Positions 6,249 to 20,095 of a DNA stretch of 64,000 bases are shown one piece after another (position 1 is the first letter of the stretch; the number at the start of each line of letters is the position of its first letter). The DNA lies in contig NZ_CP077089.1 of the NCBI RefSeq assembly GCF_014268445.2, positions 4,395,501 through 4,459,500 of the forward strand, read 5' to 3'. The notes beneath the pieces are model-generated. The model was not told where the DNA came from and ran no database searches. It saw nothing but the letters and a program-made list of their open reading frames with translations. The stretch comes from Pseudomonas tensinigenes. Its GTDB lineage: Bacteria > Pseudomonadota > Gammaproteobacteria > Pseudomonadales > Pseudomonadaceae. A program made the position numbers and the translations under genes.

Positions 6249-6720
6249 TGTGTTCACCTAAGCGCTGGATGGTGATCGGGTCACCGGCTGCCAGCAGGAT
6301 TTTCTTGAGGATGTATTCCAGGGTCTTCAACTCGTCCGGAGTGACGGCGCCGGCGAGTTCATTCATCGCATCGGCGCCGATGTGCGGCAGGCGATCGGCC
6401 AGTTGCTGGCCTTGTTCGGTCAGCTTGAGTTGCACCTGACGGCGATCGCCTTCGCTGCGCTGGCGAGCGAGGAAGCCTTTCTGCTCCAGACGATCAAGCA
6501 TGCGCGTCATCGAACCGCTGTCCAGCGACAGATGCCGGCACAGCTCGGCCGGGGTATCGACGCCGAACTGAGCCATGATGATCAACACCTTAAACTGCGC
6601 GGCGGTGATGCCGTGGGGTTCCATGTGAGTGTCGATGATCCGGTCCTTGAGCAGCGCAGCACGGCCAAGCAACAGGCCGAGATGGCAATGTTTGAATTCG
6701 TCCGGGGTGAAATGCTTCAT
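6238..6720 (-). CDS. MarR-family repressor of the efflux operon
   Basis: This 160-residue winged-helix regulator is the first gene of the efflux operon. The recognition region is HGITAAQFKVLIIMAQFGVDTPAELCRHLSLDSGSMTRMLDRLEQKGF (about residues 37-84), and the wing is RQRSEGDRRQVQLKLTEQG, with the DRR typical of MarR wings. Family members bind palindromes as dimers and release DNA when they bind phenolic or hydrophobic ligands. Two exact palindromes lie just upstream, so autorepression of the whole operon is likely. The inducing ligand is unknown. Confidence 0.94.
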   Translation of the reverse strand: MKHFTPDEFKHCHLGLLLGRAALLKDRIIDTHMEPHGITAAQFKVLIIMAQFGVDTPAELCRHLSLDSGSMTRMLDRLEQKGFLARQRSEGDRRQVQLKLTEQGQQLADRLPHIGADAMNELAGAVTPDELKTLEYILKKILLAAGDPITIQRLGEHNER

Positions 6721-6734
6721 TTGCTCACCTAATA

Positions 6735-6780
6735 ACTGCCTAGGCAGTGAATGTATGTCGAGATGTTACTGCCTAGGCAG
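6735..6780. promoter_or_regulatory. Twin MarR operators
   Basis: ACTGCCTAGGCAGT (6735-6748) and ACTGCCTAGGCAG (6768-6780) are two copies of one palindrome, each followed by YGAATGT. Their starts are 33 bp apart, about three helical turns, and they lie 15-60 bp before the marR start on the minus strand. This is the expected layout for an autoregulated MarR dimer pair. Confidence 0.8.
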
Positions 6781-6860
6781 CGAATGTCAATGGAATAGTT
6801 AGGAGGCTTGGTAATTAGTTGACCAGTGGAGTGGGTTTTTGTGTTGCATGGGCGACCGCA

Positions 6861-6880
6861 TTCTAGGAATCGCCTGATGT
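6861..6880 (+). promoter_or_regulatory. Fimbrial regulon box, copy 1 (adhesin)
   Basis: TTCTAGGAATCGCCTGATGT ends 61 bp before the likely adhesin ATG. It matches the copy at 15902-15921 at 17 of 20 positions and the copy at 7914-7933 at 15 of 20. The three sites sit only in front of genes of this island. The TAGGAAT..YCTGA layout recalls the RcsB-type box known from enterobacteria (TAAGAAT.TTCCTA), which fits the RcsB-like regulator encoded here. The binding protein is inferred. Confidence 0.65.
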
Positions 6881-6941
6881 CCAGGCTCGAGTGCCGTGGC
6901 TAACGTACGCCGCTCATCGGCCGACACGTAAAGCCCTACTA

Positions 6942-7910
6942 ATGAAGCGTTTCAAACTCCACCGCCCGCTCCTGCTCTCTATCGCAGTCACTCTGTTTGC
7001 CTGCGCTTCGAACGCGATGGCCGGCAGTTGTGTGGTAGTCGACTCAAAACTCGACACGCTCAACTTCGGCGCCAGCCTGGCCAGTTCAACCCTGACCATT
7101 CCTGCCGACACACCCAATGGCACCGTGGTTTATCAGGACACCGTGCAGTCGACCGCTCACATCTGGAGCTGCTCAAAGACGTCCATGTTCGGCATTCTGA
7201 TGAATCCGAAGTTAGGCACCGCCAGCGGTACGGAAACTCTTTTTCCGTTAGGCAAAAGCGGGCTTTCCTACCGGGTCTGGTTTGCCGCGCTACACCGCTA
7301 CCAATCAGCGCCGCAGGCCATCCCGCCCAACACCAGCTATGGCTTCGGTGCAAACTCGGTGCGCCTGGAAATCGTCAAGACCGGCGAGCTGGCGTCGAAA
7401 GTCAACATCGATGCGGGGTATCTGGGCAGCCTGCAGGACGATGATCTGATCCTGAAAAAACTCAACCTGATGAACCCCATCGTACTGAACGCCGCCTCCT
7501 GCGAGACACCTTCCGTCCCGGTGGCCATGGGCGACGATTATCAACTTCATGAATTTCGCGAAGCCGGCGCCAAGCCGCGCACGGTGCGCTTCGATATCGC
7601 CCTGAACCAATGCCAGACCGGCATCAAGAAAGTCACCTATTCGCTCAAGGCCAACACGCCAGTGATCGACGCGACCAAGGGCATCGTCGCACTGAATGCC
7701 GGGTCCACCGCCAAAGGCATCGGCCTGCAAGTGATGAATGAAGCGGGCCAGCCGATCGCTTTCGACACGACCTACCCGTTCGATGCTTTCAACACCACCG
7801 GGCTCAACTTCAAGATCCCGTTGTCAGCCGCTTATTACCGCCTGGGCAATGAAGAACTCAGCGCGGGCAGCGCCAATACCGAAGTGACTTTCATCGTCAA
7901 TTACTTGTGA
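6942..7910 (+). CDS. Two-domain fimbrial adhesin / tip subunit
   Basis: This is a secreted protein of 322 residues. It has a signal peptide (LLLSIAVTLFACASNAMA, cut before GSCVVV), an N-terminal domain of about 170 residues with two Cys (SCVVV, WSCSK), then a C-terminal half (NAASCETPSVPVAMGDDYQL ... QTGIKKVTYSLKA ... VTFIVNYL) that looks like a chaperone-usher pilin domain with a Cys pair and a terminal donor-strand groove motif. Two-domain subunits of this size usually cap the fimbria as adhesin. I place the start at the ATG at 6942, which opens the signal peptide; an upstream GTG at 6891 would add 17 uncharacteristic residues. It is separated from its presumed pilin, chaperone and usher by four regulatory genes. 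The receptor is unknown. Confidence 0.75.
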   Translation: MKRFKLHRPLLLSIAVTLFACASNAMAGSCVVVDSKLDTLNFGASLASSTLTIPADTPNGTVVYQDTVQSTAHIWSCSKTSMFGILMNPKLGTASGTETLFPLGKSGLSYRVWFAALHRYQSAPQAIPPNTSYGFGANSVRLEIVKTGELASKVNIDAGYLGSLQDDDLILKKLNLMNPIVLNAASCETPSVPVAMGDDYQLHEFREAGAKPRTVRFDIALNQCQTGIKKVTYSLKANTPVIDATKGIVALNAGSTAKGIGLQVMNEAGQPIAFDTTYPFDAFNTTGLNFKIPLSAAYYRLGNEELSAGSANTEVTFIVNYL

Positions 7911-7913
7911 AGT

Positions 7914-7933
7914 CTTTAAGAATCGTCTGATTT
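7914..7933 (+). promoter_or_regulatory. Fimbrial regulon box, copy 2 (first kinase)
   Basis: CTTTAAGAATCGTCTGATTT lies just after the adhesin stop codon, 32 bp before the first sensor kinase. It shares GAATCG.CTGAT.T with copy 1. If it is a binding site for the RcsB-like regulator, the phosphorelay genes are autoregulated. Confidence 0.55.
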
Positions 7934-7965
7934 TCGCCGCCCCCGGCCCCCCCTACTGTGCCGGC

Positions 7966-10779
7966 ATGCGATTGAAGAATTACCTCCACCAGATCAGCCC
8001 GGTCCTGTCCACGCCCCATGCTGCGCGACGTTTGTTGCGCATTTTTGCGTGGGTGTTGCTGGTGGGCATCCTCGGTGGCGTGTACAGCTTTCTGCTGTTC
8101 ACCTTCAACAATGAGATCTCCCAGCGGCGCAGCTACATGAGCAGCGCCATTGCCGAGGCGCATACGTTTTTCACTACGCGCGAGGCGCTGCTGGAAAGCC
8201 TGAGTTTGTCGGCGACTCGGCAGACTGCGTTAAGCGCGCCGCTGTCCGAAGAGGAAATTCGACTGTTGCTCGGACAACCCCCGGGCAAGCAATGGAGCAT
8301 CTGGCTGACCCAGCGCATGCGCGACTACCTGCAGGCGCGCAAACTGAACCTGCTCTACGTCAGCAGCGGCGCCAAGGTGCAGGTCTGGCGTCTGTACAAC
8401 ACGACGCCCATGGCAGGCGATTTTCCGCGTGCGATGCTTGATCGCCTGGAAACCCTCAAGCGTGACAACACCAGCGCCCTCAAAGAAATCTGGCTGACCC
8501 ACAATTCGCAAGGGCACTCGCAGCTGTACATTTTTATTCGTCTGGATGATCGCGACCTCGATTCCGGCTGGCTCGGTCTGGAAATGGACGACCGCGAAGT
8601 CTCCAGCGCATTGAGCGACCATAGCGCCGGCGAGTTCACCATGTTCAACTCGCAAGGCATGCCACTCTTCAGCAACAGCCACAAGCCGCCGCCCGGGCAG
8701 GATCTGCCGCTGTTGCGCCAACAGGATTTCTTCGGCTTCGTCGGAGACGGCTGGCTGCCCGAGCAATTGGTGTTGCGCAAACAGCTGAAATCGTCGGACT
8801 GGCAGTTGACCTATTCCATCGACTTGCTCGCAGTGTTGTGGGCGTTGTGGCCACAGATGCTTGGCGCGCTGGCCTTCTGCGTGGCCAGTATCAGCTTGGT
8901 CTGGCTGCTGATCCGGCGTCTGGAACATCGCTTCATCATGCCGACCCTGCAACGCATTCAAGCGTTGGTCGAAAGTGAGCTGTTCAGCCGCGACGTGATC
9001 CAGACCGCGCCAGTGGCGCTCTGCGTATTACGCCGCAGCGATGCTCAAGTGGTGCTGGAAAATACCCTCGCGCAGCAATGGCTGGGCGCCTGCAGCGAAC
9101 AACTCGGCCCCGGCTGGATCCGGGCTGCATTCGCGGAAAACGCGCCATGCCTGACCGACTACTTCGAGACCGCCGACGGTCGCCACCTGTACCTGAGCTG
9201 CGCGCCGACCCGCTACAAGGGCGAAGACGTGTTGCTTTGCGCCTTCAGCGACATCAGCGCACGCCGACAGATCGAAGCGGCGCTGGAGCAGGCGCGCCAG
9301 TCGGCCGATGCCGCCAACGAAGCGAAAACCCTGTTTCTGGCGACCATGAGCCACGAAATCCGCACGCCGCTGTATGGCGTGCTCGGCACTCTGGAGTTGC
9401 TCGCTCGGACCCGGCTCGACGCTCAGCAGAAAGGTTACTTGCGAGCGATCGAAGGATCGTCGGCGACCCTGCTGCAATTGATCTGCGACGTGCTCGATGT
9501 GTCGAAAATCGAGGCCGGGCAATTGGCGCTGGAACTGAGTGATTTTTCCGTCGTGGCGCTCGCCCAAGAAGCCGTTCAAGGATACGCGGCGGCGGCACAG
9601 AGCAAAGGCTTGCAGCTGTACGCCTGCTTTGACCCGCAATTGCCCGACAGCTTGATCGGCGATGTCAGTCGCTTACGGCAGATCCTCAATAATCTGTTGA
9701 GTAACGCGGTCAAATTCACCGATTCCGGGCGCGTGGTGTTGCGGGTCAAAGTGCTGACCCGCGAAGGCGAACGCGTTTGCGTGCAATGGCAGGTCTCGGA
9801 CACCGGGCGCGGGATTGCCCACGCGGATCAGGCCTTCATCTTCGAACCGTTCTACCAGACCCAAGGCAACAGCCATGAGGTTGCCGGTACCGGGCTGGGC
9901 CTGCCGATTTGCCTGCGCCTGACCCATCTGATGGATGGCACCCTGCGCATGGTCAGCGAGCCGGGGCTGGGCAGCAGTTTTTCCCTGACCTTGCCGCTGG
10001 AGCAGCGCTCGGGTAATGCGCAGCCTGAGGGCAAGGCGAAGCTCGCGGCCGATACCGTTTACGTGGTGTCGCCAGTGCGCGAGCTGGCCGAAAGCCTCGC
10101 TGGCTGGTTGCGCCGCTGGGGCGCTCTGCCGCATATCGGCGCACCGGCCAGCCACGACGGTGCCGACGATGGCGTGTTGCTTGAGTTGTGGCCTGCGCCG
10201 ATGGAACAGCGCCGAGAACTGCGCTGGGCAGGGCCACGTATTCTGGCGAGCGGCGATGGCGCGTGGGAGTCGCTGAGCAAAGGCGACGGCTGGCTCGTCA
10301 ACCTGAACGATCTGGCCGCGATCCGCCAGGCGGTGTGCCAAGCGCAGGGCGGTCCCGTCATCGAGCATCAACACCCCGCTCAAACCCAGGTGCTGGCGGC
10401 GTTACACCTGCACATCCTCGTCGCCGAAGACAATGCGATCAACCAACTGATCCTGCGTGACCAATTGCAGGAACTGGGCTGCACGGTGACGTTGGCCAGC
10501 GATGGCGAAGAAGCCTTGTCACTCTGGCAGGACGACAGCTTCGATGTCGTCCTGACTGACGTGAACATGCCACATCTCAACGGCTACGAACTGGCCAAGG
10601 CCCTGCGACACCTGGGCTGCACCACGCCGATCATCGGCGCCACCGCCAACGCCCTGCGCGGTGAAGAGGCGTTGTGCCTGGCCGCCGGCATGAATCACTG
10701 CCTGATCAAACCTTTCACGTTGCGAGCCTTGTCGACCGCACTGGCTCCCTACCAACGAGTCGCCGATGAAGTCCTCTAG
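7966..10779 (+). CDS. Hybrid sensor histidine kinase without Hpt (PvrS/RcsC-like)
   Basis: This inner-membrane sensor has 937 residues. Parts in order: TM1 (about 23-46, FAWVLLVGILGGVYSFLLF), a periplasmic domain to about 285, TM2 (about 288-317), a PAS-like stretch (DVIQTAPVALCVLRR), HisKA with TMSHEIRTPLYG (His463), HATPase_c with NNLLSNAVKFTDSG, DTGRGI and GTGLGLPI, then a degenerate alpha/beta segment like the RcsC ABL domain (about 690-800). The receiver follows, with LTDVNMPHLNG (Asp865), and the protein ends there. There is no Hpt domain, so phosphate must reach a DNA-binding regulator through another protein, most simply the Hpt of the second kinase downstream. It overlaps the EAL regulator gene by 14 bp. 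The stimulus is unknown. Confidence 0.9.
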   Translation: MRLKNYLHQISPVLSTPHAARRLLRIFAWVLLVGILGGVYSFLLFTFNNEISQRRSYMSSAIAEAHTFFTTREALLESLSLSATRQTALSAPLSEEEIRLLLGQPPGKQWSIWLTQRMRDYLQARKLNLLYVSSGAKVQVWRLYNTTPMAGDFPRAMLDRLETLKRDNTSALKEIWLTHNSQGHSQLYIFIRLDDRDLDSGWLGLEMDDREVSSALSDHSAGEFTMFNSQGMPLFSNSHKPPPGQDLPLLRQQDFFGFVGDGWLPEQLVLRKQLKSSDWQLTYSIDLLAVLWALWPQMLGALAFCVASISLVWLLIRRLEHRFIMPTLQRIQALVESELFSRDVIQTAPVALCVLRRSDAQVVLENTLAQQWLGACSEQLGPGWIRAAFAENAPCLTDYFETADGRHLYLSCAPTRYKGEDVLLCAFSDISARRQIEAALEQARQSADAANEAKTLFLATMSHEIRTPLYGVLGTLELLARTRLDAQQKGYLRAIEGSSATLLQLICDVLDVSKIEAGQLALELSDFSVVALAQEAVQGYAAAAQSKGLQLYACFDPQLPDSLIGDVSRLRQILNNLLSNAVKFTDSGRVVLRVKVLTREGERVCVQWQVSDTGRGIAHADQAFIFEPFYQTQGNSHEVAGTGLGLPICLRLTHLMDGTLRMVSEPGLGSSFSLTLPLEQRSGNAQPEGKAKLAADTVYVVSPVRELAESLAGWLRRWGALPHIGAPASHDGADDGVLLELWPAPMEQRRELRWAGPRILASGDGAWESLSKGDGWLVNLNDLAAIRQAVCQAQGGPVIEHQHPAQTQVLAALHLHILVAEDNAINQLILRDQLQELGCTVTLASDGEEALSLWQDDSFDVVLTDVNMPHLNGYELAKALRHLGCTTPIIGATANALRGEEALCLAAGMNHCLIKPFTLRALSTALAPYQRVADEVL

Positions 10780-11953
10780 CCTACTGATTGTCGAAGATCA
10801 CCCATTTCAGCATCTGTACTTGCAGAACCTGTTCAATGCGCTGGGCGTGTTCGATCTGGAATTTGCCCGGGACGGCGAAGAAGCCCTGCACCGCCTGCAA
10901 AATCGCGAGTTCGATCTGGTGCTTACCGATCTGTTGATGCCGGGCATGGACGGCGTGCAGTTCATTCAGGGCCTCGCGATGCAGAAATCGCGCCCGGCAC
11001 TGGCGATCATGAGCGCCGCCTCGCGGCGCATGCTGATGGGTGCGAGCCTGGTGGCGAGCAATCTGCAGGTGAAGGTCATCGGGCTGATTTCCAAACCGGT
11101 CAACAGCGCGGCATTGCACTGCCTGATCGAGCAGTTGCAGGCGTTGCGTCAGGACGCGCCTGTTGCCGCGCATACCGGTATTGATCGGCAGAGCATTTTG
11201 CGCGCGCTGGACAACGGTGAGCTGCAAGCCTGGTTTCAACCCAAGAAGGCGCTGGACAATGGCCGCATCGTCGCCGCCGAAGCACTGGTGCGCTGGGTGC
11301 ACCCCGAACATGGCATGTTGTTACCGGGGTTATTTCTGCCGGTGCTGATCGCCCACGACCTTGAAGAACATCTGCTCTGGCGCATGCTGGAACAGGCGAT
11401 TGCCGCCCAGGCAATATGGCGCCAGCAAGGCTATGACATTCCGGTGTCGATCAATCTGCCCACGCACTTGCTCAACAGCCACGACCTGCCCGATCGCATC
11501 CTCGCCTTTGTCCTGCAACACAACGGTCTGCCGGCGCGGATCTGTTTCGAGCTGATGGAATGCTCGGTGCCCGACGACATCAGCAATTTCTACGCCGGAG
11601 CCTGTCGCTTGCGGATCAAGGGTTTCGGCTTGTCTCAGGATGATTTCGGCAAAGGCTACAGCGCCTACATGAACCTGGTGTCGGCGCCGTTTACCGAGCT
11701 GAAAATCGACCGTGCACTGGTCCAGGGTTGCAACAGCAACGCCGAACTGGCGCAAGCGCTGACCAGCATCGTCACCCTGGGTCGGCAACTGGGCCTGACG
11801 GTGGTGGCCGAAGGCGTGGAAACCGCGCAAGAACTTGCTCTGTTGCGTAAGATCGACTGCACTCAGGTTCAGGGTTTCCTGATTTCCCACGCAGTGTCTT
11901 CGGAGCAGTTCCAGCAGTTGCTCAGCCACGACGGCCCGGCGAATGTCTGGTGA
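10766..11953 (+). CDS. Response regulator with EAL c-di-GMP phosphodiesterase domain (RocR/PvrR-like)
   Basis: This 395-residue protein has an N-terminal receiver (LLIVEDHPFQ, LTDLLMPGMDG with Asp55) followed by an EAL domain from about residue 140. The residues known to matter for hydrolysis are present: EALVRW (Glu172), SINLPTHLL (Asn), CFELMEC (Glu), DDFGKGYS (Asp-Asp), LKIDRAL (Lys), VAEGVET (Glu) and VQGFLIS (Gln). It is therefore probably an active phosphodiesterase that lowers c-di-GMP when phosphorylated. Loop 6 reads DDFGKG rather than the more usual DDFGTG. It sits between two sensor kinases, as in Pseudomonas Roc and Pvr/Rcs systems that control Cup fimbriae. Confidence 0.93.
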   Translation: MKSSSLLIVEDHPFQHLYLQNLFNALGVFDLEFARDGEEALHRLQNREFDLVLTDLLMPGMDGVQFIQGLAMQKSRPALAIMSAASRRMLMGASLVASNLQVKVIGLISKPVNSAALHCLIEQLQALRQDAPVAAHTGIDRQSILRALDNGELQAWFQPKKALDNGRIVAAEALVRWVHPEHGMLLPGLFLPVLIAHDLEEHLLWRMLEQAIAAQAIWRQQGYDIPVSINLPTHLLNSHDLPDRILAFVLQHNGLPARICFELMECSVPDDISNFYAGACRLRIKGFGLSQDDFGKGYSAYMNLVSAPFTELKIDRALVQGCNSNAELAQALTSIVTLGRQLGLTVVAEGVETAQELALLRKIDCTQVQGFLISHAVSSEQFQQLLSHDGPANVW

Positions 11954-12040
11954 CCGGCACAATGCAGTGGACAATCACCACTTGCCATCGAGGCCATCCA
12001 TGTTCACTCGCGTAATCACTTTCTTTGACCGGGCGTGTTG

Positions 12041-15000
12041 ATGCCGCATCCCAATGCCTTGCTGGAAAAACTCGCCAGCAGTTCACTGCGCCTGAACAAG
12101 GGCTTGCTGATCCTCGGCGCGCTGGTTTTGCTGTTGCTGGGCATCAGCTATCTCGGCGTGCAGCGCATGGTCGAAGAACAGCGCGATACCATGCAGTTCC
12201 ACTTCGCCCGGCTGATGGAAAACATTCGCGAGCAGGAAGCGTTTCTCGGCGATATCTCACGGGCCAGCGACAAGGGCGAGTACTTCCCGGAAACCGTGGC
12301 GCCGCCGGTGGTGCAAAAGCGTTTGCCCGAAGAAGGGCCGAACATTTATGAAGGCCGTGGGCTGCCGTTCTCGCTGCCATTCAGCGTCAAGATCGATCCC
12401 GAGCGAATCGCTCCCAGCCAACACCCCAAGGTGTTTGCCCTCGGCAGCTATCTGGCAGCGTATTACAGCGCCTTCTGGGCGGCCTCGCATTACCAGTCGC
12501 CGCAGGTGATCCTGCTCAACGGCCCGGACAATTTCGATATCGCCGTGCCCGCCGCCGGTCGTCTGCGAGGTGCGGGGCCAACGCAAATCAGCACCTTCGT
12601 CGAGATCATGACCCAGAAGAATCTGCAACGGCGCGCGCAGACTTCAGCGCAAGTGCAGTGGGCGCCCTACCCGTTCGCTGCGGACGACAACGTGACGCCG
12701 AGCCTGCTCGCTTATGTACGGATCAACCTGAGCAAACCGACGCTGACCATTGAAGGGGCGAATTCCTGGGTAGTGCTCGGCTCGCTGCTGAAGCTCTCGC
12801 AAGTCAACAATATCGAGCGTTTGATGAAATGGTCGATCTACGATGACTTCACCCTGATCACGCCCAGCGGCACAGTGTTGATCGGCGAACTCAAGCCTGA
12901 TCGGGTGCTCAATGAAGGCGCAAACCTGACCCGCGACGGTCTGGTGTTCAAGCTGAGCAGCCCCGGTGAACGGCACTGGACGGCGATCTATGTGATCAGC
13001 GTGCAGAGTTTTCTCGATTACGCATTATGGCCATTGCTGTGTCTGCTGGGCTTGGTGCTGGTAGTGCTCGGCAGTGGCCGAGCGCTGAATCGCTGGTACG
13101 CGCAACGGGTGATTTTGCCCGCACAAAGTGCCCACGCAAGCATCGCCGAAAGTGAAGCGTTCAGCCGTGCGGTCATCGATACCGCACCGACCGGCCTGTG
13201 CGTGATCAGCCGTCGTGATCATCAGGTCTTGCTGGAAAACCAGCGCGCCCAGCAATGGCACGACACCCAGGAATTGATCAGCCTGCTCGAACAACAAGGC
13301 GCGACCGGCCATGGCCACGCGGAGCTCGAGATCGACGGCCGGCATTTGCACGTGGCCTTCATCGCCACCCGTTATCAGGGCCAGGACGCGTGGCTGTGTG
13401 CGCTGCACGATGTCACCCGCCATGTCGAAGATGCAGCGGCACTGGAAGTCGCCCGTCAGGCGGCCGATTCGGCCAATCAGGCAAAAAGCCGTTTTCTGGC
13501 AACCATGAGCCATGAAATCCGCACGCCGCTGTATGGCGTGCTCGGCACCCTGGAACTGCTTGGCCTGACCGATCTCGCGCCGCGTCAGCAGGCCTATCTG
13601 GAAACCATTCAGCGCTCGTCCGCCAGCCTGTTCAAACTGATCAGCGACGTGCTGGATGTGTCGAAAATCGAGGCCGGGCAGATGAACCTTGAGCTTCAGC
13701 CGTTCTGCCCGCTGGAGCTGACCGAAGACGTGGTGCGCAGCTACGGCGCGTTTGCCCGAGGCAAAGGTCTGCAACTGTACGCCTGCATTGATGCGGCATT
13801 GCCGGATCAACTGCTCGGTGATGCGCAACGCATTCGCCAGATCCTCAACAACCTGCTGAGCAACGCGATCAAGTTCACCGATAACGGGCGCGTTGTGGTG
13901 CGCGTTGTGGTGCTGCAAAGCACTGGCGGCCGCACCGAGGTGCAGTGGCAGGTCAGCGATTCCGGCGTGGGTATTTCCCAGGCACAGCAAGAGCAATTGT
14001 TCGACCCTTTCTATCAAGTCAATGAAGCCGATAGTCATGCCGGTGCGGGTCTCGGTCTGGCCATTTGCAAATGGCTGTGCGAGTTGATGCATGGCGAGTT
14101 GAATGTGGTCAGCGAACCGGGCCTGGGCAGTCGCTTCAACCTGCAACTGGCGCTGGATTGCGCGCCGGGCAGGCTCGCCGATTGCCCGGCCTTCGAGGCC
14201 GGCAGCGCCGCCGTTTACGTGCGCGCACCGGTCGCCGAACTGGCGCAGCATCTGCTCGGCTGGCTGCACCGCTTTGGTCTGGATTGCCGTCTGGTGACGC
14301 ACGAGTTGCCGTCGTCTTCCGCGCTGCTGGTGGATCTTGCGCCGCTGACCCACGCCACGGTTTTCGATGGCCAGCGAATCGTCGCAATACCGGGCGGCCC
14401 CAACCCGGCACAGATCAGCGGCAGCGGCTGGCAGGTCGATGCCGACGATGTGCGCGCGATTGGCTGGGCGATCGCGCTGGCAAGGCACGACGCCCATCAG
14501 CGGCGCGTACCCTCGCAGCAGGAAAATACCCGAGCACTGAACCTGCGCGTGCTGGTGGCCGAGGATAATGTGATCAACGCAGCGGTCATCCAGGAACAAC
14601 TGGAGGCACTAGGCTGCTCGGTGGTTGTCACTACCAACGGCGAACAGGCGCTGGAGCGATGGGCGCCGGGGCGCTTCGATATGCTGCTGACCGACGTCAA
14701 CATGCCGATCATGAACGGCTATGAGCTGACCACAGCCTTGCGCGAACAGGATGCAACGCTGCCGATCATCGGTGTTACCGCCAACGCCTTGCGCGAAGAA
14801 GGCGAACGCTGCGCCGCTGTGGGTATGAACGCATGGATGGTCAAACCGCTGAACCTGGCGACGCTGCGCGCGCAACTGCAAAGCCACTGCCAGATTCCGA
14901 TCGCGCAGGTCGCTGACATCCCGCCAGCGCTATCGCCGAAGATGCGCGAGCTGTTTGTCTCGACACTGCACAAGGATATTCAGACCACCCTCAGCGCGCT

Positions 15001-15202
15001 GGATGCCGCCGACGCCAACAGCGTCGCGCAGCAACTGCACAGCATGGCCGGTGCGTTGGGTGCGGTGCAGGTCGAGGCGCTGGCCCAAGCTTTCGTTGCA
15101 CTGGAATGCCGCCTGACCGGCATGTCGGTGACTCCCGCGCTGGCCGTAGAGGTTCGTCAACAACTGGCGCGCCTGACTGACCTGCTCGACGCCCTTGAAT
15201 AA
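12041..15202 (+). CDS. Unorthodox hybrid sensor kinase with C-terminal Hpt (RcsC-like)
   Basis: This sensor has about 1053 residues: TM1 (about 20-42, GLLILGALVLLLLGISYLGV), a large periplasmic domain, TM2 (about 325-350), a PAS-like region, HisKA with TMSHEIRTPLYG (His at codon 13511), HATPase_c (NNLLSNAIKFTDNG, DSGVGI, GAGLGLAI), an ABL-like degenerate domain, a receiver (LTDVNMPIMNG, Asp codon at 14693) and Hpt (QQLHSMAGALG, His codon at 15038). The kinase core is clearly paralogous to the first sensor. Having Hpt, it can complete the relay to the RcsB-like regulator, and by analogy may also dephosphorylate it. GTG (12035) and TTG (12038) codons just before the ATG are alternative starts; no strong ribosome site separates them. 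It starts 87 bp after the EAL gene. Confidence 0.9.
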   Translation: MPHPNALLEKLASSSLRLNKGLLILGALVLLLLGISYLGVQRMVEEQRDTMQFHFARLMENIREQEAFLGDISRASDKGEYFPETVAPPVVQKRLPEEGPNIYEGRGLPFSLPFSVKIDPERIAPSQHPKVFALGSYLAAYYSAFWAASHYQSPQVILLNGPDNFDIAVPAAGRLRGAGPTQISTFVEIMTQKNLQRRAQTSAQVQWAPYPFAADDNVTPSLLAYVRINLSKPTLTIEGANSWVVLGSLLKLSQVNNIERLMKWSIYDDFTLITPSGTVLIGELKPDRVLNEGANLTRDGLVFKLSSPGERHWTAIYVISVQSFLDYALWPLLCLLGLVLVVLGSGRALNRWYAQRVILPAQSAHASIAESEAFSRAVIDTAPTGLCVISRRDHQVLLENQRAQQWHDTQELISLLEQQGATGHGHAELEIDGRHLHVAFIATRYQGQDAWLCALHDVTRHVEDAAALEVARQAADSANQAKSRFLATMSHEIRTPLYGVLGTLELLGLTDLAPRQQAYLETIQRSSASLFKLISDVLDVSKIEAGQMNLELQPFCPLELTEDVVRSYGAFARGKGLQLYACIDAALPDQLLGDAQRIRQILNNLLSNAIKFTDNGRVVVRVVVLQSTGGRTEVQWQVSDSGVGISQAQQEQLFDPFYQVNEADSHAGAGLGLAICKWLCELMHGELNVVSEPGLGSRFNLQLALDCAPGRLADCPAFEAGSAAVYVRAPVAELAQHLLGWLHRFGLDCRLVTHELPSSSALLVDLAPLTHATVFDGQRIVAIPGGPNPAQISGSGWQVDADDVRAIGWAIALARHDAHQRRVPSQQENTRALNLRVLVAEDNVINAAVIQEQLEALGCSVVVTTNGEQALERWAPGRFDMLLTDVNMPIMNGYELTTALREQDATLPIIGVTANALREEGERCAAVGMNAWMVKPLNLATLRAQLQSHCQIPIAQVADIPPALSPKMRELFVSTLHKDIQTTLSALDAADANSVAQQLHSMAGALGAVQVEALAQAFVALECRLTGMSVTPALAVEVRQQLARLTDLLDALE

Positions 15203-15224
15203 TTTCACTCTGGATAAAGCACTC

Positions 15225-15872
15225 ATGGAAACCTTCAACGTTGTCATCGCCGATGATCATCCCATCGTCCTGCTGGGGGTGCGGGAACTGGTCGAGCGCG
15301 ACCGGCGCTTCAGCGTAGTCGGCGAGGTAGTGTGTTCCGATGGTTTGATCAAGCTGCTGAGGTCACAACCGGTGGATCTGCTGATCACCGACTTCAACAT
15401 GCCCGGTGACTCGCCCTACGGTGATGGCCTGAAACTGGTGGAGTACGTGACCCGACACTTTCCCGCAGTGCGGGTGCTGGTGCTGACCATGATTTCCAAC
15501 CCGTTGATCCTGACCCGCCTGCAAGAACTCGGCGTACTTGCAGTCATTCAGAAAAGCCAGTTGCACGTTGAAATAGAAGTGGCGCTCAAAGCCATCGCCA
15601 AGGGCAAGCGCATAAGCGGCCATCGAACGACGCCGACTTCGGTGCTGGACGATGGCGCCGATCTCGATGAACGTTTCTCCCGTCTATCGCCCAAGGAACA
15701 TGAAATCCTGCGCTTGTTTGTTCAGGGGCAAGGCGTCAATGAAATCGCCCGAGGTCTGAATCGAAGTGCAAAGACAATCAGCACGCAGAAGATTTCGGCC
15801 ATGCGCAAACTGGATGTCAGCAGTGATCAGGAGCTGCTGACTTACTGCATCGAACGCAACTTGTTCAATTGA
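15225..15872 (+). CDS. RcsB/RocA-like LuxR-type response regulator
   Basis: This 215-residue protein has a receiver (NVVIADDHPIVLLGVRELVE) and a LuxR/NarL helix-turn-helix (RLSPKEHEILRLFVQGQGVNEIARGLNRSAKTISTQ). ITDFNMPGDSPYGDG gives Asp56, the same position and the same GD..YGDG context as enterobacterial RcsB, and RLSPKE.E.LRLF and LNRS.KTIS.QK also follow RcsB closely. The ATG at 15225, with GGATAAAG before it, is preferred over a TTG at 15195. It is the terminal receiver of the two-kinase relay and probably activates the pilin operon that starts 107 bp downstream. Confidence 0.93.
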   Translation: METFNVVIADDHPIVLLGVRELVERDRRFSVVGEVVCSDGLIKLLRSQPVDLLITDFNMPGDSPYGDGLKLVEYVTRHFPAVRVLVLTMISNPLILTRLQELGVLAVIQKSQLHVEIEVALKAIAKGKRISGHRTTPTSVLDDGADLDERFSRLSPKEHEILRLFVQGQGVNEIARGLNRSAKTISTQKISAMRKLDVSSDQELLTYCIERNLFN

Positions 15873-15901
15873 CAGACTGTTGCCCCTCGCAACTTGCTGG
15901 T

Positions 15902-15921
15902 TTCTAGGGATTGTCTGATGT
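15902..15921 (+). promoter_or_regulatory. Fimbrial regulon box, copy 3 (pilin operon)
   Basis: TTCTAGGGATTGTCTGATGT ends 57 bp before the pilin ATG, almost the same distance as the box before the adhesin (61 bp). The equal distance and 17/20 identity suggest the same activator works at both promoters. Confidence 0.65.
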
Positions 15922-15978
15922 TGCAGCGCCCAACCGGGTTTTATCGTGTTGTCTTTACCCCACCAATGGAAAAGCAAC

Positions 15979-16566
15979 ATGAAAAAGCTGTCTCGCACGC
16001 TTCTCGCCCTGTCGATCTTCGCTGCCGCTAATGTCCTGGCGGCCGATCCGGTTGTGCCTACCAAGGCTGGCAGCGGCACCATCAACTTCACCGGCACCAT
16101 CAACAACGATGCCTGCTCGGTCGAAGGCGCCGGCAAGGACAAGACCATTTCGGTGAACATGGGCGAAGTGTCGATCAAGGACATGGGCACCGCCACCGCG
16201 CCAAAAGGCAACGGCACGCTGAGCGTCGAGAACTTCGACATGAAGATCAACTGCAACGCTGGCACCAAAGTGGCAATGATCTTCGAACCAACCAAGGGCG
16301 CAGGCTCGGGTATCGAAACCGGCACCAAGGTCTTGAAACTGATCGACGGCCTGGGCTCGGCAAAAGGTATCGGTATCGCCTTGCTTGATGCCAACGGTGC
16401 AGTAATCGACCTGACTTCGCCGACTACCGCGCGCATCGAAAACACCCTGCAGGACAGCAACACCACGCTGAAATTCTCGGCCGCCTACGTGACCACCGTC
16501 GATCCGAAACTGGCCGTTGCCGGCCGTGGCGACGCGACCCTGCCGTTCACCCTGCAATACGAATAA
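15979..16566 (+). CDS. Major fimbrial subunit (chaperone-usher pilin)
   Basis: This pilin of 195 residues has a signal peptide (LSRTLLALSIFAAANVLA) and mature start ADPVVPTKAGSGTINFTGTI. It has the classic pilin Cys pair (NNDACSVEG and MKINCNAGT) and ends TLPFTLQYE with the penultimate Tyr used for chaperone binding and donor-strand exchange. GSGTINFTGTINNDAC is the standard N-terminal extension plus first strand of Cup/type 1 pilins. The ATG at 15979 follows GGAAAAG; an in-frame upstream start at 15946 is unlikely. It is the first gene of the pilin-chaperone-usher operon. Confidence 0.94.
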   Translation: MKKLSRTLLALSIFAAANVLAADPVVPTKAGSGTINFTGTINNDACSVEGAGKDKTISVNMGEVSIKDMGTATAPKGNGTLSVENFDMKINCNAGTKVAMIFEPTKGAGSGIETGTKVLKLIDGLGSAKGIGIALLDANGAVIDLTSPTTARIENTLQDSNTTLKFSAAYVTTVDPKLAVAGRGDATLPFTLQYE

Positions 16567-16588
16567 ATCGCGCGATTCATCGAGCACT

Positions 16589-16620
16589 GTGCGGGGCCGA
16601 ACGGTCCCGCACTTTCTTTC
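16589..16620 (+). terminator. Hairpin plus T-rich tail between pilin and chaperone
   Basis: GTGCGGGGCCG pairs with CGGTCCCGCAC (16589-16612, one G-U pair, 2-nt loop) and is followed by TTTCTTTC. It resembles a leaky intrinsic terminator or 3' stabiliser that would yield more pilin mRNA than chaperone and usher mRNA. Confidence 0.7.
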
Positions 16621-16640
16621 ACTCTGCGCGGTAATTCTTC

Positions 16641-17387
16641 ATGTTTTTACGTCCTTCCCTGTCCCTTTGCGTCGGCCTTCTGGGCCTGCTCGCCGTCAAT
16701 CAGGCCATGGCTGGCATTTCCCTGAGCAGCACTCGACTGATATTCGACGGCAAGCACAAAGAAGCCGGCATCACCGTGCGCAACAGCGGTGCAGACGTGT
16801 TGATTCAGTCCTGGGTCGATACCGACAGCGACGAAGCCTCTGTGCCCTTTGCCGTCACTCCACCGCTGGTGCGCGTCAGCGACGGAGAACAACAGATTCT
16901 GCGGGTCATCTACGAAGGCACCGGTATGCCCAAAGACCGCGAGTCGGTGGTGTGGTTGAACGTGCAGGAGATCCCGCAGTCGGCGAAAACCGCGAACACC
17001 CTGCAACTGGCGGTGCGCCAACGGATCAAGGTGTTCTTCCGCCCTGGCGGCCTGAACAACAACGCTTATCAGGCCCCGACCGAGCTGACCTGGCGACTGA
17101 CCGAGCGCGCCGGCAAGAGCGTACTGGTGGTGAGTAATCCCGGGGTTTATCACGTCTCGATTGCCGACATCACTGTGCAATCCGGCGCCACACGCGAGCA
17201 TCCGTTCGACTCGATGATGATCGCCCCTGGCGAAGAAAAAGAGTTTGTTCTCAAACAACTTCACACGGCAGGTTCCCCGCGCCTGTTGTTCAGCAGCATC
17301 AACGACTACGGCGCCAGAGACCGTTATGTCGCGCAACTTTCCGGCAGCGCCGCAGTAAGCGCCAGCCTGGATAAAGAATCGCCATGA
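16641..17387 (+). CDS. Periplasmic fimbrial chaperone (PapD family)
   Basis: This 248-residue protein has a signal peptide (SLCVGLLGLLAVNQAMA). It has PapD/FimC signatures: ISLSSTRLIFDGKHKEAGITVRNSG at the N-terminal edge strand, with the Arg that anchors pilin C-termini, VTPPLVRVSDGEQQILRVIYEG in the middle, ESVVWLNVQEIP, and LQLAVRQRIKVFFRP. It folds subunits in the periplasm and delivers them to the usher. The second Ig domain (about 140-248) ends in SINDYGARDRYVAQL. Confidence 0.95.
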   Translation: MFLRPSLSLCVGLLGLLAVNQAMAGISLSSTRLIFDGKHKEAGITVRNSGADVLIQSWVDTDSDEASVPFAVTPPLVRVSDGEQQILRVIYEGTGMPKDRESVVWLNVQEIPQSAKTANTLQLAVRQRIKVFFRPGGLNNNAYQAPTELTWRLTERAGKSVLVVSNPGVYHVSIADITVQSGATREHPFDSMMIAPGEEKEFVLKQLHTAGSPRLLFSSINDYGARDRYVAQLSGSAAVSASLDKESP

Positions 17388-17450
17388 CTCGCGTGCTGCT
17401 TTAACAGCCGCACTTTCACTGTATTTCTCTTCGCTCCGTTAGTTCGTATC

Positions 17451-17459
17451 GGAGGTGAT
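17451..17459 (+). promoter_or_regulatory. Strong but distant ribosome binding site of the usher gene
   Basis: GGAGGTGAT is a perfect nine-base complement to the 16S 3' end, yet it ends 13 nt before the ATG at 17473. An in-frame TAG at 17461 rules out a closer upstream start. The wide spacing may temper translation of this large outer-membrane protein. Confidence 0.6.
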
Positions 17460-17472
17460 ATAGGGTTCCTGC

Positions 17473-19965
17473 ATGTTTTTATTCAAGCGCGATGGCCTGG
17501 CACCGTTTTCGGTTGCTCTGGTCTTCAGCACAACCTGTCTGGCTGACGCCGAAGAGCAATTCAATACCTCGTTTCTGCAAGGCGCGACGTCTGCCATCGA
17601 CCTGCAATCGCTGCTCGCCGGCAGCCGCGTGCTCCCCGGCACTTACCGGGTCGATCTGTATGGCAACGATATGCTGGTGGGCCGCCGCGATATCGCCTTT
17701 CGGCGTCTCCCCGACAGTCACAAGGTCCAAGCCTGTCTGACTCTGGACATGCTCAAGCAACTGGGCGTGGATATTGGCAAGCTGCAAGCCAGCGGCAAAC
17801 TCGACGTCGCCGATGCGGATGCCTGCCTCGACCTGCCCGCGCTGATCGATCATGCCACCGTGCGCTATGACGTGCCGCGCCTGCGTTTGCTGGTCAGCGT
17901 GCCGCAAAGTGCCATGGAGCGTGGCCGCCGTGGTTATGTCGATCCGGCGCTGTGGGACGAAGGCGTACCCGCAGCGTTCATCAATTATCAGGTGAGCAGC
18001 AACCGCAACAGCACCGATGCCCAGACCACGATTGCCAATAACGTCGGCCTGCGCAACGGCATAAACCTTGGCGGCTGGCGCCTGCGTAACGAGTCGAACT
18101 TCAACAGCAGCACCGGCCAGCCAAGTACGTTCAAGAGCAACCGCAGCTACCTGCAACATGACGTCACCGCGCTGAAGGGCCAGTTCAGTGCCGGGGATAT
18201 TTTCTCCGACGCCGACCTGTTCGACAGCGTGCGTTATCGCGGCCTGAAACTGGCCTCCGACGACGGCATGCGCGCCGACAGTGAGCGCGGCTATGCGCCG
18301 GTGATTCGCGGCATTGCGCAATCCAGCGCCACGGTAGAGATTCGCCAGAACAATTACATTCTGTACACCGCCAACGTACCGCCCGGGCCGTTCGAGATCA
18401 GCGACATTTACCCCAGCGGCTCCAACGGCGATCTGGAAATCACCGTAATCGAAGCCGATGGCCGGCGCCGGGTCACGGTGCAGGCTTTTTCAAGCCTGCC
18501 GATCATGGTGCGCGAAGGCCAGTTGAAGTACAGCGTTTCGGCGGGCCGCTACAACAGCAACAGCGATGACCAGCAAACGCCGGAATTTATCAGCAGCACC
18601 GTGGCTTATGGCGTCAGCAGTAACCTGTCGGCGATTGTCGGCACTCAGGCCACCGAGGATTTTCAGGCACTGTCGATCGGCGCCGGTCGCAACACTGCCA
18701 TCGGGGCGATCTCGCTCGATCTGACCCACTCCAGCAGTCGCACCTTCGGCCAGACGCTCAAGGGCAACAGCCTGCGCGCGTTGTACGCCAAGACCTTTAC
18801 CGGTACTGACACCAACTTCACCCTCGCCGCTTATCGCTATTCGACCGAGGGCTATCGCACCTTGAGCGAACACGTCGAAGAGCTAAGCCGTGAGGGTGAG
18901 CAGCGTAGCGGCAACTCGAAAACCCGCACCGACCTCACTGTCAACCAGAGCCTGGGGCGCAATCAGCAGTTCGGCAGCATCTACCTCAACGCCAGTGATC
19001 AGCGCTATTGGGGCCGCGGCGGTTCGCAGAGCCTGTCGGCCGGTTACAGCAATTATTGGGCTGACGTCAGCTACAACCTCAGCGCGACTTACACCAAGGA
19101 TGTCGGCAACTACGGCCCGGCGAACAACGACACTTTGTTCAATCTCTCAGTGTCGTTTCCGCTGGGCTCAAAGCCCCGCGCGCCGCGAGCGTTCGTTTCG
19201 GCCAGCACGCAGAAAGATGACAGCAGCACCCAGGTCGGCATCAACGGTTACCTGTCCGAAGACAGCGACACCTATTACTCAGTGCAGGGAGGCAACAGTC
19301 GCACCGGCGGCAGTACGGGGTCGGCCAACCTCAGCACGCGAACCCCAGTGATGGACATCAGCGCCGGCTACAGTCAGGGCCGTGGCTACAACTCGCAGAG
19401 TCTCAACGTGGCCGGATCGATTGTCGGCCACGCGGGCGGGATCAACCTGGGGCAGACCGTCGGTGAGACTTTTGCGCTGGCGCAGGTCGACGGTGTCAAA
19501 GACGTGAAGATTGCCAGTTTCTCGGGCGCGAAAACCGCCGGTAATGGATTCGCTGTGGTGTCCAATGCGCAGCCGTATCGGGTCAACTGGATCAGCCTCG
19601 ACACCCGCGACCTGGGCGGCGACTTTGAAATTGAAAACGCCACCCAGCAAGTGGTACCGCGCCGTGGTGCCGTGGTGCTAGCGCGCTACGCGAGCAAAAC
19701 CGGACGCCGGGTGCAGTTTTCTCTGTTCGACGCGCACCACCAGCCGATCCCGTTTGGCGCCGCACTGGAGGACGCCGCCGGCAAACAACTGGCGATCTCC
19801 GACCCGAGCGGCAAGGCACTGGCGCTGGTCGCGGACGACGCCGGCACCCTGACCATCAATTGGCAAGGCCAGCGCTGCGAGGCGTCGTATGCACTGCCCG
19901 AGCGGGACAAGGCGTTGAACTACGAGCGGGCCTCCCTGGTGTGCCGCGCGCCAGTGGCTGACTGA
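17473..19965 (+). CDS. Outer-membrane fimbrial usher (PapC/FimD family)
   Basis: This 830-residue protein is the assembly platform and pore for the fimbria. The signal peptide is cut near CLADAEEQFN. FNTSFLQGATSAIDLQSLL and GTYRVDLYGNDMLVGRRDIAF form the N-terminal chaperone-subunit binding domain. GYAPVIRGIAQSSATVEIRQNNYILYTANVPPGPFEISDIYP is the highly conserved barrel/plug part. Gly/Ser/Asn-rich beta strands make up the 24-strand barrel, and the C-terminal domains (RRGAVVLARY, GRRVQFSLFDAHHQPIPFGAAL) contain the final Cys pair. It is the last gene of this operon; no tip gene follows it, which makes the separate gene at 6942 the likely partner. Confidence 0.96.
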   Translation: MFLFKRDGLAPFSVALVFSTTCLADAEEQFNTSFLQGATSAIDLQSLLAGSRVLPGTYRVDLYGNDMLVGRRDIAFRRLPDSHKVQACLTLDMLKQLGVDIGKLQASGKLDVADADACLDLPALIDHATVRYDVPRLRLLVSVPQSAMERGRRGYVDPALWDEGVPAAFINYQVSSNRNSTDAQTTIANNVGLRNGINLGGWRLRNESNFNSSTGQPSTFKSNRSYLQHDVTALKGQFSAGDIFSDADLFDSVRYRGLKLASDDGMRADSERGYAPVIRGIAQSSATVEIRQNNYILYTANVPPGPFEISDIYPSGSNGDLEITVIEADGRRRVTVQAFSSLPIMVREGQLKYSVSAGRYNSNSDDQQTPEFISSTVAYGVSSNLSAIVGTQATEDFQALSIGAGRNTAIGAISLDLTHSSSRTFGQTLKGNSLRALYAKTFTGTDTNFTLAAYRYSTEGYRTLSEHVEELSREGEQRSGNSKTRTDLTVNQSLGRNQQFGSIYLNASDQRYWGRGGSQSLSAGYSNYWADVSYNLSATYTKDVGNYGPANNDTLFNLSVSFPLGSKPRAPRAFVSASTQKDDSSTQVGINGYLSEDSDTYYSVQGGNSRTGGSTGSANLSTRTPVMDISAGYSQGRGYNSQSLNVAGSIVGHAGGINLGQTVGETFALAQVDGVKDVKIASFSGAKTAGNGFAVVSNAQPYRVNWISLDTRDLGGDFEIENATQQVVPRRGAVVLARYASKTGRRVQFSLFDAHHQPIPFGAALEDAAGKQLAISDPSGKALALVADDAGTLTINWQGQRCEASYALPERDKALNYERASLVCRAPVAD

Positions 19966-19974
19966 GAAGACGCC

Positions 19975-20064
19975 ATCGCTGGCAAGCCAGCTCCCACAAA
20001 GTCCTTGGCGCACACAACAATCATGTACGCCACAGAAGCTTGTGGGAGCTGGCTTGCCAGCGAT
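19975..20064. repeat. REPIN, GCTGGCAAGCCAGC type
   Basis: ATCGCTGGCAAGCCAGCTCC and its inverse face each other between the convergent usher and tamB genes. The core differs from the GCGAGC..GCTCGC type found elsewhere in the window, so this is a second REP family. Confidence 0.88.
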
Positions 20065-20095
20065 TGAAGCGACTCGGTTCAGGAGAAAGCGCGAT

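Follow-up and report, generated by a model that had tools for sequence, protein, structure and literature searches.

The stretch of DNA analysed here (hereafter the window) comprises 64,000 nucleotides of the chromosome of Pseudomonas tensinigenes (contig NZ_CP077089.1, positions 4,395,501 to 4,459,500) and holds a fimbrial island of eight genes, all open and all on the + strand, which extend from 6942 to 19965 and encode an adhesin, four regulators resembling PvrS, PvrR, RcsC and RcsB, a pilin, a chaperone and an usher. Our subject is a promoter-like element that recurs before three of these genes, and what this recurrence may mean for the joint control of pilus and adhesin. The gene order had been given in a preliminary description of this DNA, and the domain searches agree with it. 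The features are as follows (positions are those of the window; aa, amino acids; loci compared are numbered L, genomes G).

6815..20200, no strand: exchanged tract (comparison with L075; breakpoints, left 6814-7293, right near 20201)
6863..6878, + strand: predicted RcsB box of the adhesin gene, CTAGGAATCGCCTGAT (pattern scans of window and genome)
6901..6906, + strand: predicted -10 hexamer TAACGT of the adhesin gene, box plus 22 bases (spacing analysis)
6942..7910, + strand: predicted two-domain tip adhesin, 322 aa, receptor-binding-like and pilin domains (domains, predicted structure)
7916..7931, + strand: predicted RcsB box of pvrS, TTAAGAATCGTCTGAT (pattern scans, relatives)
7954..7959, + strand: predicted -10 hexamer TACTGT of pvrS, box plus 22 bases, ATG 6 bases on (spacing analysis)
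7966..10779, + strand: PvrS-like hybrid sensor kinase, 937 aa, without Hpt (domains, identities, residues)
10766..11953, + strand: PvrR, receiver-EAL phosphodiesterase, 395 aa (700.9 bits against a cut-off of 580, tree, RocR alignment)
12035..15202, + strand: RcsC-like hybrid sensor with Hpt, 1055 aa from GTG, an ATG lying at 12041 (domains, identities, residues)
15225..15872, + strand: RcsB-like response regulator, 215 aa, Asp56 (family searches, residues)
15904..15919, + strand: predicted RcsB box of the pilin operon, CTAGGGATTGTCTGAT (pattern scans, relatives)
15942..15947, + strand: predicted -10 hexamer TATCGT of the pilin gene, box plus 22 bases (spacing analysis)
15979..16566, + strand: major pilin, 195 aa (domains)
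16641..17387, + strand: PapD-type chaperone, 248 aa (domains)
17473..19965, + strand: outer membrane usher, 830 aa (domains, usher tree)
6238..6720, - strand: left flank, MarR-type regulator next to efflux genes, outside the island (flank comparison)
20096..23770, - strand: right flank, TamB, outside the island (flank comparison)

Both kinases combine HisKA, HATPase and receiver domains, to which the second, RcsC-like one adds an Hpt domain that the first, PvrS-like one does not have; PvrR joins a receiver to an EAL domain, and the RcsB-like regulator a receiver to a LuxR-type helix-turn-helix (HTH). This succession had been recognised in the preliminary description as that of the PvrSR/RcsCB set, and regulators, order and domains are indeed those described, in the available parts of the two reports, for the CupD region of the pathogenicity island PAPI-1 in P. 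aeruginosa PA14 (PMC2696094, PMC3842833). Phosphorelay residues are present in PvrS (His463, Asp865), in PvrR (Asp55), in the RcsC-like kinase (His493, Thr497, Asp887 and, in the Hpt domain, His1002) and in the RcsB-like regulator, where Asp56 stands in the context TDFNMPGDSPYGDG, as had been stated; the start of this last protein is most likely the ATG at 15225, 215 aa being the length seen in the majority of the 120 relatives listed. PvrR passes the curated NCBIfam model NF052596 (700.9 against 580 bits, residues 1-394) and aligns with the solved RocR across almost its full length. The proteins share their domain types with E. coli RcsC and RcsB, whereas they fall below the respective NCBIfam equivalog cut-offs, the RcsB-like protein with 181 against 235 bits (NF008098) and PvrS and RcsC with 470.7 and 422.4 against 920 bits (NF008099).

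The PvrR cut-off is passed in 96 of 398 genomes of the genus, about a quarter, in 33 of 248 genomes of a family sample that includes the window's genus too, and in 1 of 369 genomes of a class sample, namely the window's own; plasmid matches to PvrR are all below 36% identical among the 20 listed. With 80 of the matches from the genus sample taken for comparison, 179 loci (window included) were gathered by PvrR and reduced to 144 distinct by PvrR before the box counts given below. As most of the 179 contain this set of regulators, the arrangement of four regulators is not due to chance.

A predicted promoter signature shared by three gene units

The adhesin gene, pvrS and the pilin gene are each preceded by a 16-mer resembling the RcsB box (at 6863, 7916 and 15904), the E. 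coli consensus of the RcsB/RcsAB box being of the type TAAGAAT..TCTTA, to which the island sites likewise belong. In the window 22 bases separate this site from TAACGT (adhesin), TACTGT (pvrS) and TATCGT (pilin), hexamers of the form TANNNT, which starts at 0.25% of the + strand positions of the window. With a 17-base spacer a -35 element would start at the last base of the box, and this would be the geometry of an activator touching polymerase at -35. With up to 2 mismatches allowed, the pattern of the three sites has no fourth match in the window (mean expected, 0.32). When the pattern is slightly widened, the only exact matches in the 6.62-Mb genome are the three inside the island, such that the term 'self-contained', used of the island in the preliminary description, is borne out; four sites with 1 mismatch lie elsewhere in the genome, none of them with TANNNT at +22.

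Across the 144 distinct loci the box was counted with as many as 2 mismatches, in an interval reaching from 300 bases before an open frame to 60 bases into it, matches below 60 bits and PvrS or RcsC fragments shorter than 700 aa being left uncounted. It is found at pvrS in 128 of 139 cases, at the pilin gene in 72 of 82, at the adhesin gene in 32 of 36, at the chaperone gene in 29 of 174 and at the usher gene in 2 of 130, and at none of the pvrR (0/144), rcsC (0/136), rcsB (0/153), marR (0/28) and tamB (0/27) genes, nor at any of the 37 genes for a second type of adhesin (adh2), which mostly lie behind the chaperone gene. The reversed pattern, used as control, occurs at 1/139 pvrS and 1/82 pilin genes and at no other gene. 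TANNNT follows the box at exactly +22 at the pilin gene in 69 of 72 cases, at the adhesin gene in 27 of 32, at the chaperone gene in 27 of 29 and at pvrS in 93 of 128 (with 10 more pvrS cases at +23), and on clustering of alike spacers in 31/33, 16/20, 12/14 and 47/59, respectively. In several loci the fimbrial operon is inverted and the box is retained with it (L100, L104-L107). These same loci, together with L200, L201 and L203, have two rcsB-like genes in tandem, and their rcsC-like gene lies past a convergent, CupD-like fimbrial operon.

The absence of a box before pvrR, rcsC and rcsB fits one operon behind the pvrS box. It also argues against the alternative of two separate pairs, in which RcsC-RcsB would activate the pilus and PvrS-PvrR would independently repress it, the shared locus being a convenience of linkage. 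This arrangement was the earlier model for PA14 (PMC3842833, available part), and each kinase gene does precede that of a response regulator; yet PvrS is without Hpt here too, and according to the same source PvrS activates in PA14 and needs RcsC, while neither kinase works via PvrR. We therefore hold the two-pair alternative to be unlikely.

The distance from the box to the ATG of pvrS is 34 bases in 98 of 128 loci and 35 bases in 25, that is, 6-7 bases past the hexamer at +22; no Shine-Dalgarno-like word occurs in the 14 bases before the ATG (0/98), and the N-terminus of PvrS, M-[RK]-L-K, is largely conserved. The pvrS mRNA is predicted to be leaderless, with transcription that would start at the A of the ATG or close to it. 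The narrow range of this distance (34 or 35 bases in 123/128) also bears on the question of whether the 16-mer could be a mark of recombination or duplication, aiding the mobility of adhesin genes and devoid of regulatory function. Adhesin units have often been moved, inverted or duplicated along with the box (L042, L147, L151, L193), as one would then expect, but the window spacers, though mutually unrelated (6-7 of 22 bases alike), are of equal length with TANNNT kept, and no direct repeat of at least 9 bases links the two island ends. On balance such a mark seems very improbable.

As to the protein that would read the box, the CupD cluster provides a reference. PA14 proteins were absent among the 120 matches listed per protein search, and L244, obtained by family search, served instead; the sizes, order and identity of its genes, and no strain name, are the grounds for regarding it as CupD, and its PvrR shares 99% identity with a protein of 399 aa from the 'Pseudomonas aeruginosa group'. 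Like the window, L244 has a box upstream of the major pilin gene and, 50 bases ahead of pvrS, another with the same geometry (ATAAGAAACGTCTGAT, 22 bases, CAGTCT, 6 bases, ATG). In the former, TTAAGAATCGTCTTA, which precedes cupD1, GAA occupies -77 to -75, and a further GAA stands at -158. The available part of the PA14 report describes GAA at -78 to -76 as crucial for cupD1 promoter function and GAA at -158 as inert, likens the cupD1 site to the RcsAB box and records the induction of pvrS, pvrR, rcsC, rcsB and cupD on overproduction of RcsB (PMC3842833). The offset of one base may be an indel, since L244 may be a strain other than PA14. The HTH part of the window's RcsB is 65% identical to that of L244 and 44% to that of the Roc-type regulator. 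L244 has in addition a second box-like site, TTAGGAAACATCTGAT (18219-18234, - strand), followed after 22 bases by TAGAGT; it lies ahead of a frame of 150 aa (17702-18154) by the CupD cluster.

The box was also followed in whole genomes, mostly of a single contig, 28 being chosen from the 96 regulator-positive and 28 from the 302 other genomes of the genus. The exact box is present in 28/28 of the former (50 sites, 45 in clusters) and in 1/28 of the latter (1 site), with a Fisher p of 8e-15, although the genomes are related. This distribution bears on the alternative that the 16-mer is bound not by the island RcsB but by another LuxR-type regulator, for example one of Roc type. The genome of P. 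tensinigenes itself has a second fimbrial locus with Roc-like regulators (L246, 3460000-3476000; its assignment to Roc is based on the order and size of its genes and not on a named record), the pilin gene of which has a box relative with 2 mismatches, TTTGAGAATTGTCTCAT; the HTH helices are alike, and ten more matches to the RcsB-like regulator occur in the genome. The exact box, however, tracks the Pvr/Rcs genes, and a matching GAA is required for RcsB-driven cupD1 expression in PA14 (PMC3842833, available part), so that binding by another regulator appears quite unlikely.

Among 14 exact boxes examined outside the clusters, 7 belong to adhesin units, 5 lie by RcsB-like genes, 1 precedes the pilin-chaperone-usher genes of a second cluster (L334) and 1 lies within a long frame (L336); the box of L336, its frame being a very long open one, and that of L331, within another frame, were counted as misses. 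In L326, L327, L328, L332 and L333, seemingly one kinship group, the four regulators are without an adjoining pilus and the exact box lies by an RcsB-like response-regulator gene, with no TANNNT at +22 on the box strand; these regulators recall the RcsB-induced orphan regulators of PA14.

Adhesin genes near to and far from the pilus

The adhesin has a C-terminal Fimbrial domain, and its predicted structure, with a mean predicted local distance difference test score (pLDDT) of 85.2 from a 28-row alignment, has matches among known structures for two segments, residues 29-186 and 186-322 approximately; a first model from 11 rows was poor (pLDDT 59) and was discarded. The protein is accordingly predicted to be a two-domain chaperone-usher tip adhesin, with an N-terminal receptor-binding and a C-terminal pilin domain. 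Compared with the two-domain tip adhesins FimH, CupB6 and Abp1D/Abp2D, its gene stands alone, with a predicted promoter of its own. The preliminary description had termed this adhesin split from its assembly genes: it is apart from the pilus operon, yet possesses its own copy of the shared site.

Scoring of 69 adhesin-like genes (frames below 270 aa were not counted) places this arrangement in context. An own box is found at 30 of the 34 adhesin genes with no chaperone, pilin, usher or rcsB gene just upstream (one of them follows another adhesin gene); for the 32 located behind a chaperone gene, the box is on the chaperone gene in 26; and the three directly behind an usher gene have none (0/3). 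Rearranged adhesin genes are each boxed, whether doubled (L151), present as inverted pairs (L042, L193) or located to the right of rcsB (L147). In L057 the adhesin has only 33% protein identity to that of the window, the other island genes having 84-92% DNA identity.

The seven adhesin units headed by exact boxes outside the clusters are those of L329, L330, L335, L337, L353, L354 and L355. TANNNT stands at +22 in L330, L335, L337, L354 and L355 and at +23 in L329, while L353, a unit of a chaperone gene and then an adhesin gene cut by the locus end, has CAGAAT; L330 also shares the leader of the window adhesin. The Fimbrial domain was found in all five remote adhesins given to Pfam, and no usher was recognised near the remote adhesins within 11.5-12 kb (L329, L330, L335) or 3 kb (the others). 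Eight genomes were picked because no adhesin was recognised left of pvrS, a test that is partly blind and includes one genome (G089, L046) with an adhesin-like gene right of the usher gene on the other strand. Four of these have one extra exact box each, in all four cases leading to an adhesin unit, and the other four have none. Where island and remote adhesin gene lie on one contig, they are about 207 kb (G090), 237 kb (G351), 442 kb (G110) and 467 kb (G300) apart.

Kinship with CupD and Roc, and exchange of the island

Identities between the window and L244 are 47% for pvrS, 55% for pvrR, 44% for rcsC and 50% for rcsB, and 35% and 33% for usher and chaperone. The island resembles the Roc systems (RocS1-RocR-RocA1, CupB/CupC) in that a kinase, a receiver-EAL protein and a LuxR-type regulator adjoin fimbrial genes; yet to L246 its regulators are just 31% (pvrR), 32% (rcsB) and 34% (rcsC, over 37% of the length) identical, and its usher, chaperone and pilin 63, 61 and 55%. 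In a PvrR tree of 58 rows (quick method), 51 Pvr-type and intermediate rows are separated from 7 Roc-type rows with a support of 100, the window being on the Pvr side. The regulators are thus relatives of PvrS, PvrR, RcsC and RcsB and not of the Roc proteins, as had been proposed; PvrR was placed by tree, and PvrS, RcsC and RcsB by identities. Between Pvr and Roc in the tree are L255-L259, deeper relatives with the four-gene set, in which PvrR reaches 369-444 bits with a profile built here.

The island had also been suggested as a possible chromosomal ancestor of the CupD system of PAPI-1. The four regulators in the same order, 44-55% identical, are compatible with this, but the PvrR tree splits the two groups: the window falls in a 21-row clade (support 100), and L244 stands with loci of other genera of the family (group 73; L244 with L237, 99). 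The ushers, too, belong to different lineages, the window's including the usher of its own Roc locus (48-row tree, quick method), and the approximately unbiased test rejects a single clade that unites the 43 Pvr-linked ushers and excludes the 5 linked to Roc (p-AU 1.7e-7), with long branches among the rows. The divergent usher lineages indicate that the regulator set has been coupled to several of them, regulators and pili having recombined. In CupD, moreover, five genes, cupD1-5, include the adhesin and a second chaperone within the cluster and are convergent to the regulators (PMC2696094, available part); the window has pilin, chaperone and usher genes only, in the same direction as the regulators, with the adhesin gene separate and left of pvrS, and by gene content, direction and pilus identities its fimbriae are not CupD. 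Judged from these comparisons the island and the PAPI-1 system are relatives, and descent of the latter from the former seems hardly credible. What stands of the earlier interpretation is thus the Pvr/Rcs type of the regulators and the self-contained set.

Outside the Pseudomonas family, regulators and pilus occur together in Achromobacter insolitus LMG 6003 (L195), with PvrR 61% and usher 66% identical and exact boxes at pvrS and pilin; this was the one Achromobacter among the best 80 of 154 loci in a scan of named genomes. It is nested within Pseudomonas in both trees, in that of PvrR inside the window's clade, which indicates transfer between distant lineages.

Exchange is also apparent closer at hand. 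Between the window and L075 there are 16 substitutions in 13.4 kb (6815-20200, gaps uncounted), while the flanks are 92-97% identical, with a divergence of about 3-14% in segments of 250 bases; so close a match between less similar flanks implies that the unit was exchanged whole. In L041, L043 and L060 the pattern is reversed, with island genes 75-86% identical (the N-terminal part of the adhesin, 65-72%) and flanks 87-96%, and by this comparison these are older replacements. Empty sites, in which marR runs directly into tamB, are found in 10 of the 29 marR loci of relatives, and together with the tract shared with L075 they point to recombination in the flanks. The preliminary epithet 'chromosomal' is therefore correct as to location, while the island itself has been horizontally exchanged. 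The PAPI-1 CupD region is flanked by two direct repeats (PMC2696094, available part), whereas the island ends of the window (6601-6990 and 19901-20200) have no word of 9 or more bases in common, repeats further out not having been sought. Arrival on an integrating element was considered and rejected, there being no tRNA gene in the window and no end repeats; integrase genes were not searched for. In two island-less near relatives another frame lies between marR and tamB (L293, 4655-6049, 464 aa, DUF308-like; L294, 4593-5915, 440 aa), and the interval seems open to several insertions.

A probable common switch for pilus, adhesin and regulators

Taken together, these comparisons suggest that the island joins a PvrS-PvrR-RcsC-RcsB set to a pilus and a predicted tip adhesin, and that its adhesin, pvrS and pilin units, each with the 16-base site, 22 bases and TANNNT, are likely switched on together by phosphorylated RcsB. 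We infer RcsB binding, phosphotransfer, activation, an effect on cyclic di-guanosine monophosphate (c-di-GMP) and joint assembly as follows. PvrS would act as kinase, after the example of P. aeruginosa PA14; the receiver and Hpt domains of RcsC would relay the phosphate to Asp56 of RcsB, and RcsC would also remove it. RcsB would then bind the box, the end of which touches the -35 position, and recruit RNA polymerase. The first output would be pilus and adhesin, and the second the pvrS-pvrR-rcsC-rcsB operon itself, constituting a positive loop, which would also yield PvrR and so lower c-di-GMP and end the adhesive state. The promoter copy of the adhesin gene would substitute for operon linkage, such that adhesin genes could sit, be exchanged or be added elsewhere and still be co-produced with the pilus, while the unit from box to usher would move between strains, probably via recombination in the flanking marR and tamB regions.

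Several observations weigh against this reading. The search pattern derives from the three sites of the window itself and was made one letter wider once relatives had been inspected, TANNNT was noticed post hoc, and the 144 loci, being related, do not count as independent cases. At the position of GAATC in the PA14 site, the window's pilin box reads GGGATT. Boxes are missing at pvrS in 11 of 139 cases, at the pilin gene in 10 of 82 and at the adhesin gene in 4 of 36, as well as at 4 of the 34 adhesin genes with no fimbrial gene just upstream and on the chaperone gene of 6 of the 32 chaperone-led adhesins; some of these gaps arise because the start was chosen too far upstream (in L198, L237 and L244 the site lies further in), while no box at all is seen at pvrS of L108, L109, L110, L111, L114, L115, L117 and L203. 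Finally, in the available part of the PA14 study the PvrR Asp is dispensable for activity, PvrR lowers cupD just about twofold and mutation of the PvrS receiver Asp is without effect (PMC3842833). A separate observation is that in L108, L110, L111, L114, L115 and L117, with pvrS boxless, rcsC aligns over only two-thirds, and the regulator may read another site.

A wider proposal, for which we see the arguments as evenly balanced, is that the RcsB box, 22 bases and TANNNT form a portable tag, by which adhesin genes, near or hundreds of kb away, become plug-in cassettes for one shared pilus, strains altering their adhesion by swap, gain or loss, and the same tag on a leaderless pvrS driving both the kinase loop and the c-di-GMP off-switch. 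Apparently new are the promoter signature, its restriction to the island and its occurrence at split and remote adhesin genes, in that a literature search confined to main texts and largely to open-access papers found no published report of the box at pvrS or adhesin genes, or of the island outside P. aeruginosa.

For the genus, a system described on one pathogenicity island becomes a mobile module in about a quarter of the genomes sampled, and the box offers a site-level explanation for the rise of pvrS, pvrR, rcsC and rcsB under RcsB in PA14. Remote adhesins feeding a shared pilus, recombination of regulators and pili and a leaderless kinase message are now testable, and from a single promoter signature of 44 bases one would predict the fimbriae and adhesins that a strain deploys together, the targets of the regulator being perhaps readable from the DNA.

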